Part shown: positions 14,612 to 25,202 of the stretch, in pieces
How the letters are laid out: each line of letters begins with the position of its first letter
How positions within the stretch are numbered: position 1 is the stretch's first letter
Origin: a virus
Virus record (IMG/VR): IMGVR_UViG_3300034418_003415
Span: 1 to 27,917 of that record
Reading direction: 5' to 3' (one strand)
Length of the DNA stretch: 27,917 nt
Position numbers and translations under genes: made by a program
The notes under the pieces: generated by a model
What the model was told of the DNA's origin: nothing
Databases searched by the model: none
Seen by the model: only the letters and a program-made list of their open reading frames with translations

Positions 14612-14823
14612 TATACATACTCGTTATAGAAGCCCATACCACCACTTGAACCAGTAATTAAAGACCTGCGGCCTCTGCCGCCACGCCTACGGCTTACTGT
14701 TTCAGCTAAAGCTGTTTGCCTTCTCTCTGATTTTACAGCTTGCTCTTGCTGTCTTTGCTCTGTTTGTTGAGCTTCTACAGCAGGGTCTGTCTGTGGTGCT
14801 TTAGGTGTTCTGCCTACACACAT
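14611..14823 (-). CDS. Small Gln/Arg-rich protein upstream of the portal (unknown)
   Basis: 70 residues starting MCVGRTPKAPQ. The middle is a Gln/Glu/Arg-rich helix (about 17-45), followed by RRRGGRGRRSLITGSSGGMG. Small proteins with an MC-x-G start and an RRGGRGRRSL-type basic tail are common immediately upstream of podoviral portals; I know of no function. The SD AAGGAG is clear. It is the first gene after the late motif at 14874-14883, so it leads the portal-scaffold transcription unit. It could be a minor virion or packaging protein, but this is a guess. Confidence 0.7.
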   Translation of the reverse strand: MCVGRTPKAPQTDPAVEAQQTEQRQQEQAVKSERRQTALAETVSRRRGGRGRRSLITGSSGGMGFYNEYV

Positions 14824-14862
14824 GATAAACTCCTTTGGTTTTACTATTCCTAATCATATTTA

Positions 14863-14883
14863 GTCGCACTATGCAACGCACAA
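14863..14883 (-). promoter_or_regulatory. Late-promoter motif copy 3 plus 15-bp palindrome (portal operon)
   Basis: On the minus strand TTGTGCGTTG (14874-14883), just after the large-terminase stop, overlaps palindrome GTTGCATAGTGCGAC (14863-14877). An AT-rich stretch with TATGAT follows before the SD of the 70-aa gene. TTGTGC to TATGAT is 19 bp, long for sigma70. The same arrangement occurs at 11581-11601. Confidence 0.55.
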
Positions 14884-14884
14884 A

Positions 14885-16423
14885 TTACATTCTCGCCCAT
14901 AAACCTTGTCGTTTGGCTTGTCTTGGCTTGCGAGTAAACACATCAAAGTCTTTTCTAGCGTTGAAAGCATTAACTGGTTTATGTCCAGATATAAGTTGTC
15001 TGCCTTCACCAGCACCCAGCATTAGGTATTGCAATGCGTCATGGATGTGGGAATACATATTTTTGTCTGGCTTATCAGCATATCTTTCGCCAGATACTTC
15101 CATACGTTTATATTGATACCCACCTTCAAAACCTTTGATAAGTGATGGGCATCTTCTGTCCACCAAGAACGCTGGTTTGCCATCAACCATCTTGTTTAAT
15201 GACGCTGAAACGCTTTCTAAGCGCAGGTCAACCGAATTGGATGGGGCTGGCAAGGCTCTAAGGCCAGCCCCCCTTAATATCTGGAATGGCGTAGACTCAT
15301 CTGTTTGTGCGCGGAAGTCACCAGCAGGGTCGCCAAAGATATGCACTTCTTGATTGCCAAAACGTGTAGCTATCTCTTGCCGCAGTAATTCAGCAAAGCG
15401 CACGATGCCCATGTCAATGGCTACAATCTCGGACTGAATAAGCCAACGTCCACGCACCTTCTGCCCAAACACAGCCGCAGGGGTAAGCCCAAAGTCAATG
15501 CCAATATACACAGGAACGCCATCAGCAATCGGTATTTCTTCTTTGGCTATGTGTGTTTCGGAAACAAATGATGGGTACACTGGCTTGCCTTCCTGTATAG
15601 AGCCAAGACGATTCATTACATACACATCAATCCAACTCTTAGTCTTGCCCCGTATAAGGTTGGGATAATATGTCTTTAACATATTCTTTGAGTTCTCTGC
15701 GTCCTTGTTAGGCTCGTAATCCTTAACAGAACCATCTTCCTCAAATATTTCTTTCATGCCCTCTGGCTGAATATAAAAAGACCAGTTGTCTGGCTTAACC
15801 AACATCCTTGCTTGTTCTCTAGGAATATGGTCTGGGATAGGAACTTCGCCAGACATGATGGGCCACCAATGGTCTTCTTCTGGGGCGTTGGTGTCTGCAA
15901 TAACGCCTGACCATGATGGCCCACCATCGCGCATGGAGGGAAAGCGACCCACACGCATTGTACAAGCATCTATAATACTTTTAGGCACTTCTCTGGCTTC
16001 GTTAATCCAGATGCCTGTAAGTTCGAGCGACAGCAGTTTCTTAACGTCTTCTGGTCTATCCAGCGCAAGAAAGATAACCTCAAGTTCGAGGTCGCCTTGT
16101 TTGATAAAATGCGTATATGGCACTGACCACATAAACTTTCCCCACTGGTCTTCGGGAAACCAGTCGAGCCATGTTTTGATTGTTGTTGTTCGTAGCTGGG
16201 GGTTTGTGTTTCTAATAATCGCCCAACGAGAACGCCGTACACCATCTTTGTTTGGTTTCTGCTCTAAGGCTCTGCGGAACACCTCAACGCAACATCCAAC
16301 AGATTTACCAGAACCTACTGGCCCTCTAATGCCACGAAAGAAGGTATTGTCCTTCATAAATGCTTTTAATACTTTACCGTCTGGCTTGTAACTAAAGCTG
16401 GTCAACTTTTTTGTCTTTCCCAA
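14885..16423 (-). CDS. terL: Terminase large subunit
   Basis: 512 residues. The N-terminal ATPase has Walker A GPVGSGKS at residues 34-41 and Walker B TGIWINEA at 136-143, with catalytic Glu142. The C-terminal nuclease shows YIGIDFG with Asp310, then FGDPAGD further on, and a HIHDALQYLM helix near the end, as usual in this family. It is the packaging motor and the nuclease that cuts concatemers. The ATG at 16423 lies inside the preceding small gene (32-base overlap). The small subunit lies 2.1 kb upstream, separated by nine small genes. Confidence 0.95.
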   Translation of the reverse strand: MGKTKKLTSFSYKPDGKVLKAFMKDNTFFRGIRGPVGSGKSVGCCVEVFRRALEQKPNKDGVRRSRWAIIRNTNPQLRTTTIKTWLDWFPEDQWGKFMWSVPYTHFIKQGDLELEVIFLALDRPEDVKKLLSLELTGIWINEAREVPKSIIDACTMRVGRFPSMRDGGPSWSGVIADTNAPEEDHWWPIMSGEVPIPDHIPREQARMLVKPDNWSFYIQPEGMKEIFEEDGSVKDYEPNKDAENSKNMLKTYYPNLIRGKTKSWIDVYVMNRLGSIQEGKPVYPSFVSETHIAKEEIPIADGVPVYIGIDFGLTPAAVFGQKVRGRWLIQSEIVAIDMGIVRFAELLRQEIATRFGNQEVHIFGDPAGDFRAQTDESTPFQILRGAGLRALPAPSNSVDLRLESVSASLNKMVDGKPAFLVDRRCPSLIKGFEGGYQYKRMEVSGERYADKPDKNMYSHIHDALQYLMLGAGEGRQLISGHKPVNAFNARKDFDVFTRKPRQAKRQGLWARM

Positions 16424-19347: not shown

Positions 19348-19743
19348 ATGACTACCAAGAAAAACACAACTAACGGCTTCGTTCAGGACATGATGCGTAT
19401 TCATACAATCACTGACAGAACACACAAATCATCAATACAATATTATCTTTCAAAGTTTGTGAAAGATATTAACTGGAATTCGAATCAGAAAGAACTTCGG
19501 ATTGCAGAGATTGTTGCTATGCAAGAAGAACTTGTTGAGAAAGCTCGCAACGGTGAGATGATTGACAATGATGCACTGTTGAAGAACGAGAATGATATCG
19601 AATGGCTTCGGAAACAGGTAGATTTCAATGACGAGATGGTGACATACTTTACACAAGCGTCACAGCAGTTGTTTCCTGATGAGCATAACAAGTCACAGCA
19701 AATAGCTGATAAGACAGCAGACATCCTCAAAAGATACGCATAA
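19348..19743 (+). CDS. First early gene, helical unknown protein
   Basis: 131 residues from ATG at 19348, chosen because AAAGGAG lies eight bases upstream; the reading frame stays open back to 19267, but that part is the non-coding leader. The protein is highly charged and predicted almost wholly helical (IAEIVAMQEELVEKARNGEM, then NDIEWLRKQVDFNDEMVTYF). No family recognised. It is first in the rightward block and is followed at once by a strong terminator, so it forms its own transcription unit. That is typical of an immediate-early host-takeover or regulatory protein, but this is inference from position. Confidence 0.75.
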   Translation: MTTKKNTTNGFVQDMMRIHTITDRTHKSSIQYYLSKFVKDINWNSNQKELRIAEIVAMQEELVEKARNGEMIDNDALLKNENDIEWLRKQVDFNDEMVTYFTQASQQLFPDEHNKSQQIADKTADILKRYA

Positions 19744-19756
19744 CCTCCCAACAACG

Positions 19757-19787
19757 AGCCTCGATGCTTCGGCATCGGGGCTTTTTT
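19757..19787 (+). terminator. Rho-independent terminator after the first early gene
   Basis: An 11-bp stem (AGCCTCGATGC with GCATCGGGGCT, one G-T pair) closes on the stable tetraloop TTCG and is followed by six T. It begins 14 bases after the stop at 19743. A textbook terminator on the plus strand that separates the first early gene from the next operon. Confidence 0.9.
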
Positions 19788-19884: not shown

Positions 19885-19899
19885 GTTGCACTCTGCAAC
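19885..19899. promoter_or_regulatory. 15-bp palindrome on the -35 region of the early promoter
   Basis: GTTGCACTCTGCAAC, a perfect six-base dyad with a three-base centre. It contains the -35 box TTGCAC (19886-19891). Same family as the copies at 330, 11581, 14863, 23507 and 23528. A protein bound here would be expected to block or activate the promoter. Confidence 0.55.
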
Positions 19900-19914
19900 T
19901 AAACATTATATACT
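19886..19914 (+). promoter_or_regulatory. Sigma70-type promoter for the second early operon
   Basis: TTGCAC (-35, 19886-19891), 17-bp spacer, TATACT (-10, 19909-19914). A start near 19921 would leave about 20 bases of leader with SD AGGAG before the ATG at 19941. It lies directly after the terminator of the first early gene. It is overlaid by two dyads: 19885-19899 on the -35 and 19911-19928 on the -10/start site. Confidence 0.75.
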
Positions 19915-19928
19915 GCAAGTATGCAGTA
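19911..19928. promoter_or_regulatory. Operator-like dyad TACTGCA-N4-TGCAGTA, copy 1
   Basis: A perfect 7+7-bp dyad (TACTGCA AGTA TGCAGTA) overlaps the -10 box and the likely start site of the promoter at 19886-19914. A second copy with the same arms and the same four-base spacer lies at 24284-24301, also on a promoter. This fits a repressor operator for one of the small HTH proteins of the early region. Confidence 0.7.
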
Positions 19929-19940
19929 CAGGAGAACACA

Positions 19941-20123
19941 ATGAAACTAGTAGCTAAAACATTTATATATGGTGGCATATCAGCAGTCTTACTGGCATCA
20001 ATGGCAGTAGACGAAACCTATGCACCAATGACTAACGAAGAGTTTATGTTGCAGATAATGCTCATTGTATTTGGCATGGGTGCAACATTCATCGGCTTTA
20101 TTATGCACAGCATGGCGGAGTAA
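19941..20123 (+). CDS. Small two-helix membrane protein (unknown)
   Basis: 60 residues with two probable membrane helices, about residues 6-24 (KTFIYGGISAVLLASMA) and 38-56 (LQIMLIVFGMGATFIGFIM), joined by a short acidic loop. SD AGGAGAA before the ATG. It is the first gene of the operon controlled by the dyad-covered promoter. Small early membrane proteins in phages often act in superinfection exclusion or membrane takeover; nothing here decides between such roles. Confidence 0.7.
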   Translation: MKLVAKTFIYGGISAVLLASMAVDETYAPMTNEEFMLQIMLIVFGMGATFIGFIMHSMAE

Positions 20124-21776: not shown

Positions 21777-22029
21777 GTGCTATGAAGAATACCACACTTG
21801 CCAAGACTGCAATAAAATCCACAGTTCTTACAATGACTTACGCCATGACAACACTGATGATGGTGGCTTTTGCGTGGTATGCGGTAGCGATAATATAGAA
21901 ATGCTAATCAAGCACACTGTCTATGCAGAAGTTCTTGCAACTAGCAAAGAAGATGCACTGCAAACTGCTATGGAAATGGAAGAGTGGATTGTACTCGAAC
22001 ACTATTATGAGGATGGAAACAATGAATGA
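21742..22029 (+). CDS. Small zinc-ribbon protein
   Basis: 95 residues with two Cys pairs, CQDC at residues 20-23 and CVVC near residues 44-47, the usual spacing for a zinc ribbon. The C-terminal part (AEVLATSKEDALQTAMEMEE) is a small alpha/beta segment like those found in phage proteins that follow a zinc ribbon. The ATG at 21742 has GGAGG upstream and lies 35 bases inside the previous gene. It may bind nucleic acid or protein; the target is unknown. Confidence 0.65.
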   Translation: MTIYRISKNVNKCYEEYHTCQDCNKIHSSYNDLRHDNTDDGGFCVVCGSDNIEMLIKHTVYAEVLATSKEDALQTAMEMEEWIVLEHYYEDGNNE

Positions 22030-22348
22030 TTTATTTGACACCCCAGCATACAAGCTGGTCAGAGCGAGTGACCCCTCAACAAGTCACGAAGCGGCAGAAC
22101 AGCTAGATGCTACCGCAATGGAACGCATCGTTCTATCTGCAATTAAAACTTTTGGCAATGATGGTTGCATATCAGATGATGTTCTAAATATTTTACCTCA
22201 TCATGGCTACAGCACCATCACCGCAAGGTATAAACAACTGAAAGAAAAAGGTTTTGTAATTGTAGATGAACGCAAACGCAAAGGAAAAAGTGGGCGTAAT
22301 CAATTAGTTATGTGGGCTAAAGAATTTTATAGACCAGAGGAGGCTTGA
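22022..22348 (+). CDS. Winged-helix-like DNA-binding protein
   Basis: 108 residues from ATG at 22022, overlapping the preceding stop by eight bases and preceded by GAGG. The C-terminal two thirds read like a winged helix: ERIVLSAIKTFGNDGCISDD, then HGYSTITARYKQLKEKGFVI, then DERKRKGKSGRNQLVMWAKE, that is, helix, HTH and a basic wing. N-terminal motif SDPSTSHEAAEQL is common in small phage proteins of this type. A candidate regulator of the early or late promoters. Confidence 0.7.
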   Translation: MNDLFDTPAYKLVRASDPSTSHEAAEQLDATAMERIVLSAIKTFGNDGCISDDVLNILPHHGYSTITARYKQLKEKGFVIVDERKRKGKSGRNQLVMWAKEFYRPEEA

Positions 22349-22350
22349 CA

Positions 22351-22431
22351 ATGACTGCGTGTTTGCAGATGATGTGTTCATGCTTACATACATGGACACA
22401 CTTATTAAAAAATCTACAGATGCAAACGTAA
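22351..22431 (+). other. 26-codon open frame with the best SD ahead of the small HTH gene
   Basis: ATG at 22351 has AGGAGG at seven-base spacing, the strongest SD in this operon, but its frame ends at TAA 22429-22431 after 26 codons (MTACLQMMCSCLHTWTHLLK...). A slippery A AAA AAT heptamer in this frame lies at 22407-22413, and the HTH gene is read in the -1 frame. It could be a leader peptide, a frameshift entry into the HTH gene, or chance. Confidence 0.35.
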
Positions 22432-22583
22432 ATCTCAAGAGAGCTTTCGTTTATGCTGGCGTACCTGATTCAACTTTCTATAGAGCAAAGCTGGGTTCAG
22501 AACTAAGGCATAGCACAGCTAATAGAGTAGAGCAGGCTATTGAAAAACTTTCAGCACTACAAAAACGAAACGCCAGTGACTGA
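22359..22583 (+). CDS. Small HTH (Cro-like) protein
   Basis: Up to 74 residues from GTG at 22359; ATG at 22380 or 22392 are alternatives, since no SD sits at normal distance from any of them. The middle (NLKRAFVYAGVPDSTFYRAK) followed by RHSTANRVEQAIEKL looks like a short XRE/Cro-type HTH with a recognition helix at DSTFYRAKLG. Overlaps the next HTH gene by eight bases. Together they are the best candidates for the protein that binds the TACTGCA dyads. Confidence 0.6.
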   Translation: MFADDVFMLTYMDTLIKKSTDANVNLKRAFVYAGVPDSTFYRAKLGSELRHSTANRVEQAIEKLSALQKRNASD

Positions 22584-23884: not shown

Positions 23885-24293
23885 GATATCACGCACTAGG
23901 TTTACAGACCACGGCACTGATATACTTGTTTCTGGTTTCAAGATAGAAGCAGATTCAGTTGAACAAGTAGAGCAAGCAATCAAAGCTGTGCTGGCTTCGA
24001 TGACCCCGTTGTCGGTGGAGGCCATCGAGAGCCAGCTGGCTTTGTTAGCTACGCTGGTGGTCAAACCCTCAGGCGAGACACCAGAAGACCACTCACTACG
24101 CATGAGAAGCCTAGCAATGCAGTTATCAGATTATCCAGCAGACATTGTGCAACGTGCAATCAAGAGAGTATCTGAATCTGCAAAGTTCTGGCCATCATAC
24201 GCAGAGTTTTACGAACACATTGGCTGGCGTGTACGCAAGCGTCAGCTACTGTTAGATGCGCTTCACAAAAAGCGTGTTGACATTACTGCATAG
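23823..24293 (+). CDS. Possible helicase-loader-type replication partner
   Basis: 156 residues from ATG at 23823 (AGG seven bases upstream), overlapping the initiator by 62 bases; the frame is open further upstream only as a shadow of the initiator gene. The C-terminal part (LRMRSLAMQLSDYPADIVQR, then KRVSESAKFWPSYAEFYEHI and KRQLLLDAL) has the YPADIV...FWPS-x-AE pattern of small proteins found next to phage replication genes, sometimes considered helicase-loader or P-like partners. It has no Walker motifs, so it would not be a DnaC-type ATPase. Position after an O-like initiator supports a P-like role, but this is inference. Confidence 0.6.
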   Translation: MQVDKRLVTSVESILGYTVNEISRTRFTDHGTDILVSGFKIEADSVEQVEQAIKAVLASMTPLSVEAIESQLALLATLVVKPSGETPEDHSLRMRSLAMQLSDYPADIVQRAIKRVSESAKFWPSYAEFYEHIGWRVRKRQLLLDALHKKRVDITA

Positions 24294-24305
24294 TTGCAGT
24301 ACAAC
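24277..24305 (+). promoter_or_regulatory. Sigma70-type promoter for the recombination operon
   Basis: TTGACA (-35, 24277-24282), 17-bp spacer, TACAAC (-10, 24300-24305). The -35 lies in the end of the preceding gene. The predicted start, about 24312, is exactly where the long leader stem begins. The operator-like dyad 24284-24301 fills the spacer, so the promoter should be repressible. Confidence 0.7.
24284..24301. promoter_or_regulatory. Operator-like dyad TACTGCA-N4-TGCAGTA, copy 2
   Basis: Perfect 7+7-bp dyad (TACTGCA TAGT TGCAGTA) across the spacer and first -10 bases of the promoter at 24277-24305. Arms are identical to those at 19911-19928. Part of it overlaps the stop codon (TAG 24291-24293) of the preceding gene. 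Confidence 0.7.
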
Positions 24306-24311
24306 AAAAGA

Positions 24312-24383
24312 ACAGGTGGCGGTTCGTTCAGGACTGTTGTAAACCGCAGTGTTTACATTAGTGGATACCTTCTCGTCACCTGT
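24312..24383 (+). ncRNA. Structured 5' leader closed by a 7-bp stem
   Basis: ACAGGTG (24312-24318) at the predicted transcript start pairs with CACCTGT (24377-24383), and GCGGTT (24319-24324) with AACCGC (24342-24347) stacks inside. The 72-base span with a 7-bp closing stem resembles a tRNA acceptor, but T-arm and anticodon arm are missing. The structure ends seven bases before the SD AAGGAG. A stabilising or regulatory leader for the exonuclease gene is likely. Confidence 0.5.
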
Positions 24384-24404
24384 GCAACATAAGGAGAACT
24401 ACAC

Positions 24405-25202
24405 ATGAATAGACAAGGCTTTATTGGCGGCTCAGATATGAGGCGCATCATGGATGGTGATTGGGTATCACTATGGGAAGAAAAGACTGGCCGCACCCAG
24501 CCAGAAGATTTATCAAATCATCTTGCGGTACAACTCGGCACACACACAGAAGATTTCAATCTACAATGGTTTGCAGATAATGAACTCAATGCAACAGAGC
24601 AAGGGCTAGACCTGCTCAGTAAGCAAAGAACATTTGAGATGAACTGGGAAGGCGTACCATGTAAGGGTACTGTTGATGCTTGCATACACAACACACATGA
24701 AATTGTAGAGGCAAAGCATACATACGAACGCAACACTATGGAAGGTTGCCTTACTATGTATATGCCGCAGATACAATTCTACTTATGGATTGGCGTTAAG
24801 GATGGATGCTATCTATCTGTAATCTTTGGCAATCGCAGATGGGAATCTGTTTATATCAAAAAGGATTGGGATTACATCCACAAGATGCAGGTACATCTCA
24901 AAGAGTTTTGGGGTCATGTTAAAGCAGACACTCGCCCTTTCGGTGATGACCAAGTAGCACCAATATCTATAGATAAGATTCCTGTAGATGGCATGACACG
25001 CAGGGATGCCTCAAGTGACAACGAGTTTATCTCTCGTTGCCATGATTACATTGAGCAAGAACAATCAGCAAAGTCTTTTGAGTCTGCAAAGTCAGACCTA
25101 AAAGCTATGGTATCTGATGATGAGCGAGAAGTATATTGCGACTTGCTTACAATCAAGCGTGACAAGCGTGGCTCGTTACGCATAACAACAAAGGAGAACT
25201 AG
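24405..25202 (+). CDS. YqaJ/lambda-exonuclease-type recombination nuclease
   Basis: 265 residues; SD AAGGAG before ATG. It has IGGSDMRRIM near the N-terminus, LGTHTED with Glu49, GTVDACI with Asp91 and EIVEAKH with Glu102-x-Lys104, then MPQIQFYLW with Gln122 and Gln124. This is the motif series of YqaJ-type viral recombinases related to lambda Exo, which resect dsDNA 5'-3' to give 3' tails. The Rad52-like annealing protein follows at once (next base after the stop), making a two-component exonuclease/annealase pair as in lambda Red. It has its own promoter and a structured leader. Confidence 0.88.
   Translation: MNRQGFIGGSDMRRIMDGDWVSLWEEKTGRTQPEDLSNHLAVQLGTHTEDFNLQWFADNELNATEQGLDLLSKQRTFEMNWEGVPCKGTVDACIHNTHEIVEAKHTYERNTMEGCLTMYMPQIQFYLWIGVKDGCYLSVIFGNRRWESVYIKKDWDYIHKMQVHLKEFWGHVKADTRPFGDDQVAPISIDKIPVDGMTRRDASSDNEFISRCHDYIEQEQSAKSFESAKSDLKAMVSDDEREVYCDLLTIKRDKRGSLRITTKEN

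Follow-up and report, generated by a model that had tools for sequence, protein, structure and literature searches.

Several of the regulatory systems that invite comparison with the locus described here rely on leaderless messages. The mRNAs of lambda cI and of PaaR2 are leaderless (PMC8630535), and so are those of the C genes of restriction-modification systems, whose products are small and autoregulated (PMC4824078). Temperate T7-like phages have also been documented, a Pelagibacter phage among them (PMC10134795), and a strictly lytic lifestyle can no longer be safely assumed for T7-like phages (PMC10134795; see also PMC8776855). The locus lies in the record of an uncultured marine phage, which we refer to as the window, meaning the whole analysed stretch of 27,917 nt. 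Its virion genes are T7-like, including an internal virion protein with an endolysin domain, a head-tail adaptor and tubular tail proteins, and its early region is lambda-like, with an O-like initiator, a RecE-like exonuclease and a single-stranded DNA-binding protein (SSB). T7-type polymerase genes were not seen in the searches made, and the early genes, as classified by PHROGs and Pfam, comprise replication, recombination, DUF932 and unknown functions, with no restriction-modification gene. A sequence-only reading of this DNA had called a repressor regulon unusual for a T7-like virion type that is normally strictly lytic; this part of the argument is weak, given the lambda-like early region and the documented temperate T7-like phages (PMC10134795). 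Our main proposal, to which we assign a probability of roughly 0.77, is that a repressor encoded by the phage, HTH-A, uses the palindromic dyads of the early region as its operators and negatively controls its own gene, and that these dyads tie three promoters into one early regulon (Table 1).

Table 1. Features of the proposed regulon and its surroundings, with positions counted in the window.
Feature	Coordinates	Strand	Basis and description
Second, different dyad GTTGCA-CTC-TGCAAC	19885..19899	.	over the -35 of P1
Putative promoter P1	19886..19914	+	TTGCAC-N17-TATACT; predicted start near 19921; first gene 19941-20123
Putative operator O1	19911..19928	.	exact dyad over the -10 and start region of P1; like-placed in relatives L042, L126, L127, L149, L198 and L200
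Promoter P_HTH	22345..22373	+	TTGACA (22345-22350)-N17-GATGAT (22368-22373); listed by consensus scan; predicted start is the A of ATG 22380
Putative operator O2 (degenerate)	22353..22370	.	fills the spacer of the HTH-A promoter; aligned copies in relatives
HTH-A, predicted repressor, 67 aa	22380..22583	+	homologue alignment; model; co-occurrence with operator
XRE-family HTH protein, 70 aa	22576..22788	+	overlaps HTH-A; PF01381 (HTH_3), 31.1 bits against a cut-off of 23
Promoter P_rec	24277..24305	+	TTGACA (24277-24282)-N17-TACAAC (24300-24305); predicted start near 24312
Putative operator O3	24284..24301	.	exact dyad in the P_rec spacer; like-placed in most HTH-A-bearing relatives
Structured 5' leader RNA of the P_rec transcript	24311..24385	+	covariation; between P_rec and RecE
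RecE/YqaJ-like exonuclease, first gene under P_rec	24405..25202	+	phrog_434, 2.4e-22; PF09588

The proposal starts from a pair of dyads whose 7-nt arms are identical and separated by 4 nt, TACTGCA-AGTA-TGCAGTA (O1) and TACTGCA-TAGT-TGCAGTA (O3). Both are exactly as the sequence-only reading had described and located them; they are the only two copies of TACTGCA-N4-TGCAGTA in the whole window, and each lies on a putative promoter. When all 7+7 dyads with gaps of 0-8 were considered, these arms were the only ones to recur, and none of 200 Markov shuffles of the window held any recurring 7+7 dyad. Two operators had been counted; both dyads are real, but the number was understated, as a third, weaker copy (O2, GACTGCG-TGTT-TGCAGAT, with four mismatches to the full dyad) lies within the promoter of the small helix-turn-helix gene HTH-A. 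The looser core [CT]TGC[AG]-N4-[CT]GCA[AG] has exactly three matches in the window, namely O1, O2 and O3. Since about one match would be expected by chance, this count says little by itself, and it is the placement of all three on promoters that matters.

The way in which the dyads are built into the promoters differs between sites. At P1, the -10 element TATACT spans 19909-19914, and O1 begins inside it and extends across the start region. That much had been recognised before, but the description of P1 as a clear sigma70 promoter was overstated: its -35, TTGCAC, has three of six consensus bases, and P1 is absent from the list produced by a consensus promoter scan. The TTGCA of this -35 is retained in many relatives. 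O3 was likewise correctly assigned to another early promoter, although its placement is unlike that of O1, because O3 at P_rec, like O2 at P_HTH, occupies the 17-nt spacer between -35 and -10 instead of the -10 and start; it also overlaps the stop codon of the gene upstream. A column profile of the RecE promoter from 65 distinct relatives reads TTGAnC-N17-TAnAAT with the operator embedded. Its right arm, GCAGTA, is 98-100% conserved, and the final TA of this arm forms the first two bases of the -10, while the outer left arm is less conserved. HTH-A-lacking relatives, of which the cultured Pelagibacter phage Hodr is one, carry a TTGAAn-N17-TATAAC-like promoter before RecE with no dyad, so the dyad is not required for the promoter. 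Upstream of P1, between it and the gene at 19348, we also observed a strong hairpin resembling an intrinsic terminator (12 pairs and a T tract, 19756-19783).

Dyad and HTH-A are found together in hundreds of related uncultured viruses, and relatives lacking HTH-A also lack the dyad. A scan of IMG/VR for the exact pattern returned at least 119 stretches, and the following counts refer to the matches listed. Homologues of the window phage were present in 66 of these 119, where the dyad is mostly found ahead of the gene for the RecE-like exonuclease, ahead of the first early gene, or overlapping the start of HTH-A; the other 53 have no such homologue and may be chance matches. Relatives were also fetched from IMG/VR by protein homology to HTH-A and RecE, so that they were not selected on the motif. 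In the 79 loci obtained by HTH-A homology, counted here with near-identical contigs included, 36 sites are exact and 65 have one mismatch, where about 0.2 would be expected, and they cluster before RecE; the sets used for co-occurrence, profile and tree were dereplicated. Upstream of RecE, a pair of TGCA motifs with a gap of 4 was found in 106/139 loci with HTH-A and in 0/28 without it. Upstream of HTH-A itself TGCA-N4-TGCA was found in 100 of 131 relatives, and pairs with gaps of 0-3 and 5-10 are rare. In the subset untouched by the pattern scan, the dyad precedes RecE in 93/106 loci with HTH-A and 0/29 without, whereas a control stretch inside RecE in the same loci held TGCA-N4-TGCA in 1/106 and 1/29, respectively.

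Phylogeny sets a limit on this argument. On a tree of 99 exonucleases the operator and HTH-A labels are concordant at 99/99 tips with five changes each, when locus L265, whose sole HMM hit is a weak one of 30 bits, is counted as lacking HTH-A. The co-occurrence is nevertheless limited as evidence because the tree leaves just three independent pairs with good support, which are all concordant and with which a sign test cannot reach 0.05. Overall, the comparative evidence gives good support to the earlier idea that the phage contains a repressor regulon, both through the conserved placement at three promoters across a large viral group and through the co-occurrence with one phage-encoded HTH protein.

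Which protein would bind the dyads is addressed by the same material. The sequence-only reading had named four candidates, at 22359, 22576, 22022 and 25655, and only the first of them, HTH-A, follows the operator: among 97 covered, dereplicated loci it is present in 66/66 of those that bear the operator, and the other three do not track it. The proteins at 22022 and 25655, present in just 23/66 and 9/66 operator-bearing loci, were rejected as binders. A better rival is the XRE-family protein at 22576, which could bind the dyads as repressor instead of HTH-A, or together with it as a pair; it is a bona fide HTH_3 protein encoded in the same operon, its gene overlaps HTH-A, and it occurs in 64/66 operator-bearing loci. 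However, it also occurs in 24/31 operator-less loci, and where the two genes are separated the operator goes with HTH-A, being present in 4/4 loci that have HTH-A but not XRE and in 0/22 loci with the reverse combination. Additionally, the recognition segment of the XRE protein changes (SLIHKWE, SLIGKWE, DGLVAKWE) while the operator stays unchanged, and the corresponding segment in the predicted recognition helix of HTH-A, ST[YF]YR, is invariant as STYYR or STFYR in the homologue alignment. We consider it unlikely, on these grounds, that the XRE protein is the repressor in place of HTH-A or in a pair with it. Its model resembles HipB, P22 c2 and C proteins, and it is possible that it acts as a partner of HTH-A or as a second regulator.

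HTH-A itself had been listed as an open reading frame from GTG 22359, but its homologues begin at ATG 22380, which is most likely the true start. A profile search found no convincing family match in Pfam, PHROGs or PDB sequences, and tblastn against 50,697 deposited phage records gave no match. The structural model, a confident one (pLDDT 91.6), is a four-helix HTH whose nearest folds are Cro, HipB, the C proteins C.Esp1396I and C.AhdI, and a ClgR-like HTH, all with weak scores (best Foldseek E 0.5, VIA Z below 8), which leave the fold class not firmly assigned. Judged by these searches, HTH-A belongs to a well-known type of regulator but forms a new family within it, not found in cultured phages. 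The -10 of P_HTH ends 6-7 nt before the HTH-A ATG, and a Shine-Dalgarno-like sequence precedes HTH-A in 14/114 relatives, compared with 102/137 for RecE. Because of this short distance and the rarity of such a sequence, HTH-A transcripts that start at this promoter probably have no leader.

Taken together, these observations suggest how an HTH-A regulon could work. P1 would drive the early operon from 19941, P_HTH would drive HTH-A, the XRE gene and replication genes, and P_rec would drive the RecE-like exonuclease, its partner and the SSB. A homodimer of the small Cro/C1-type HTH-A would recognise TACTGCA-N4-TGCAGTA; the half-site centres lie about 11 bp apart, roughly one helical turn, a spacing that would suit a dimer on one face of the DNA. 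Since the operators sit in the spacer or over the -10, repression is predicted to act by steric block, with HTH-A excluding RNA polymerase from within the -35/-10 spacer at P_HTH and P_rec, or from across the -10 and start at P1. Operator and promoter would be interlocked, as the TA of the right arm is shared with the -10. The presence of an operator at its own promoter points to autoregulation, and HTH-A synthesis would depend mainly on a leaderless mRNA from a promoter that HTH-A itself represses. Such a circuit would be expected to play a Cro-like role, with early genes on at entry and off as HTH-A accumulates.

A variant of this scheme would have HTH-A behave like a C protein, activating while scarce and repressing once abundant; the dyad over the -35 of P1 would then serve as a further control site. 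C proteins are likewise of small size, control their own expression and have leaderless mRNAs (PMC4824078), two of them, C.Esp1396I and C.AhdI, are weakly scoring fold neighbours of HTH-A, and P1 does have this additional dyad, which is found at the same spacing in L126, L149, L155, L198 and L200 and with one change in L042, L127, L138 and L176. Yet activation by C proteins uses two palindromes per promoter, and P_HTH and P_rec each have one site, inside the promoter; moreover, the arms of the P1 dyad are different and lie 3 nt apart, and several relatives lack it. This makes a C-protein-like switch, in our estimation, quite improbable compared with simple repression by HTH-A.

The remaining explanations fare much worse. 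The tra box of TraR has the same 7+4+7 layout with an inner TGCA, and a host regulator, for example of the LuxR type, could in principle bind the dyads and couple the early genes to host state. This likeness is one of geometry only. The dyad tracks a phage gene, HTH-A, through gains and losses on the exonuclease tree, is present at the promoter of that very gene, and is common to contigs from genome bins of such dissimilar hosts as Opitutae and Novosphingobium; a host LuxR-type binder is highly improbable and was rejected on the first of these grounds. That the dyads are RNA hairpins, terminators or products of chance is scarcely credible, as one minus-strand terminator-like match does overlap O1 but the predicted starts lie within or downstream of the dyads, which would not be transcribed whole, their copy number in the HTH-A loci is far above chance, and their fixed placement relative to -35 and -10 in the RecE-promoter profile led us to reject the terminator or hairpin reading.

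Downstream of P_rec lies a separate element, a structured leader RNA in which 17 of 21 pairs show compensatory change across 22 distinct sequences. It starts close to the predicted P_rec transcription start in the window, has the conserved elements TCGTTCRGGACTGT...TTAGTG...ACCTT, and has no match in Rfam 15. The same leader RNA is present in L017, L045, L177, L195, L201, L374, L383, L392, L402 and L414, and its core pattern matches 53 IMG/VR stretches; dozens of other viral contigs carry it, upstream of a wide variety of genes. Because it is absent from the leader of a close relative (L042/L123), the element looks insertable. Other, unrelated hairpin-rich inserts are found between P_rec and RecE in L126, L156, L167, L196 and L335. 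It is as if this leader site accepts different RNA elements.

Integrase, resolvase and S24 repressor domains (PF00589, PF00239, PF00717) were found in none of 20 relatives, including the cultured phage Hodr discussed below, most of which are 30-34 kb, the window record itself being possibly incomplete; for this reason we do not take the regulon as evidence of lysogeny. HTH-A was found in only six MAG contigs (6-29 kb) among 84,980 species genomes. With integration genes missing from the 20 relatives and so few MAG contigs bearing HTH-A, a Cro-like early shut-off is likelier than an immunity repressor; we regard the former role as likely, and participation in immunity or in a carrier state as possible. 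A literature search on Cro-like regulation in lytic phages found nothing. A broader and more speculative idea, which we consider rather unlikely, is that HTH-A is the founding member of a family of phage mini-repressors that is absent from cultured phages and has an operator code of its own; it would provide reversible early shut-off in a large group of non-integrating marine podoviruses, and hence immunity to superinfection, or a carrier state, with no lysogeny involved.

For a large group of uncultured marine phages, the analysis provides a predicted protein-DNA pair, the 67-aa HTH-A and its 18-bp operator, and a simple binding test of this pair could open up the group. Operator-bearing early promoters in lytic-looking phages bear on infection timing or superinfection resistance. 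Furthermore, synthetic biology could use HTH-A and its operator as a small orthogonal repressor system.

Judged by the terminase (64.6%), RecE (37.4%) and the XRE protein (37.9%), the closest cultured relative is Pelagibacter phage EXVC031P Hodr (OQ414635). Hodr has the same general gene layout as the window phage but, unlike it, has neither HTH-A nor the operator, for which no match within 3 mismatches was found beyond chance. At 15431-15958 in Hodr (L122), the XRE HTH forms a fusion with sequence similar to the C-terminal part of the replication initiator, and another helix-turn-helix-like gene lies close by (14657-14962), where HTH-A is missing. A literature search on Hodr found no paper. 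T7-like phages of the LUZ100 type resemble the window phage in combining a T7-like virion with a regulator driven by host promoters (PMC10134795); LUZ100 encodes an integrase together with an RNA polymerase and a MarR-like regulator, whereas no integrase was found in the 20 relatives examined here.

Among regulators, those of lambdoid phages (434 Cro, P22 c2, lambda cI) are like HTH-A in being small phage HTH proteins with palindromic operators over early promoters and in autoregulation, and lambda cI also in its leaderless mRNA (PMC8630535); autoregulation and a leaderless mRNA are predicted for HTH-A. The window phage differs from lambdoid systems in having no divergent cI/cro pair, no S24 domain or integrase as judged from the 20 relatives, and one operator per promoter over about 4.4 kb with all genes on one strand; HTH-A has no family-level sequence match. 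C proteins such as C.Esp1396I, C.BclI and C.Csp231I resemble HTH-A in size, in the Cro/C1-type HTH fold class (a weak match), in autoregulation and in a leaderless mRNA, the last two being predicted for HTH-A. Unlike C-protein systems, the window phage has no restriction-modification genes and carries one operator instead of a tandem pair at each of P_HTH and P_rec, and HTH-A, unlike the C proteins, is predicted to regulate the replication and recombination genes of a phage.
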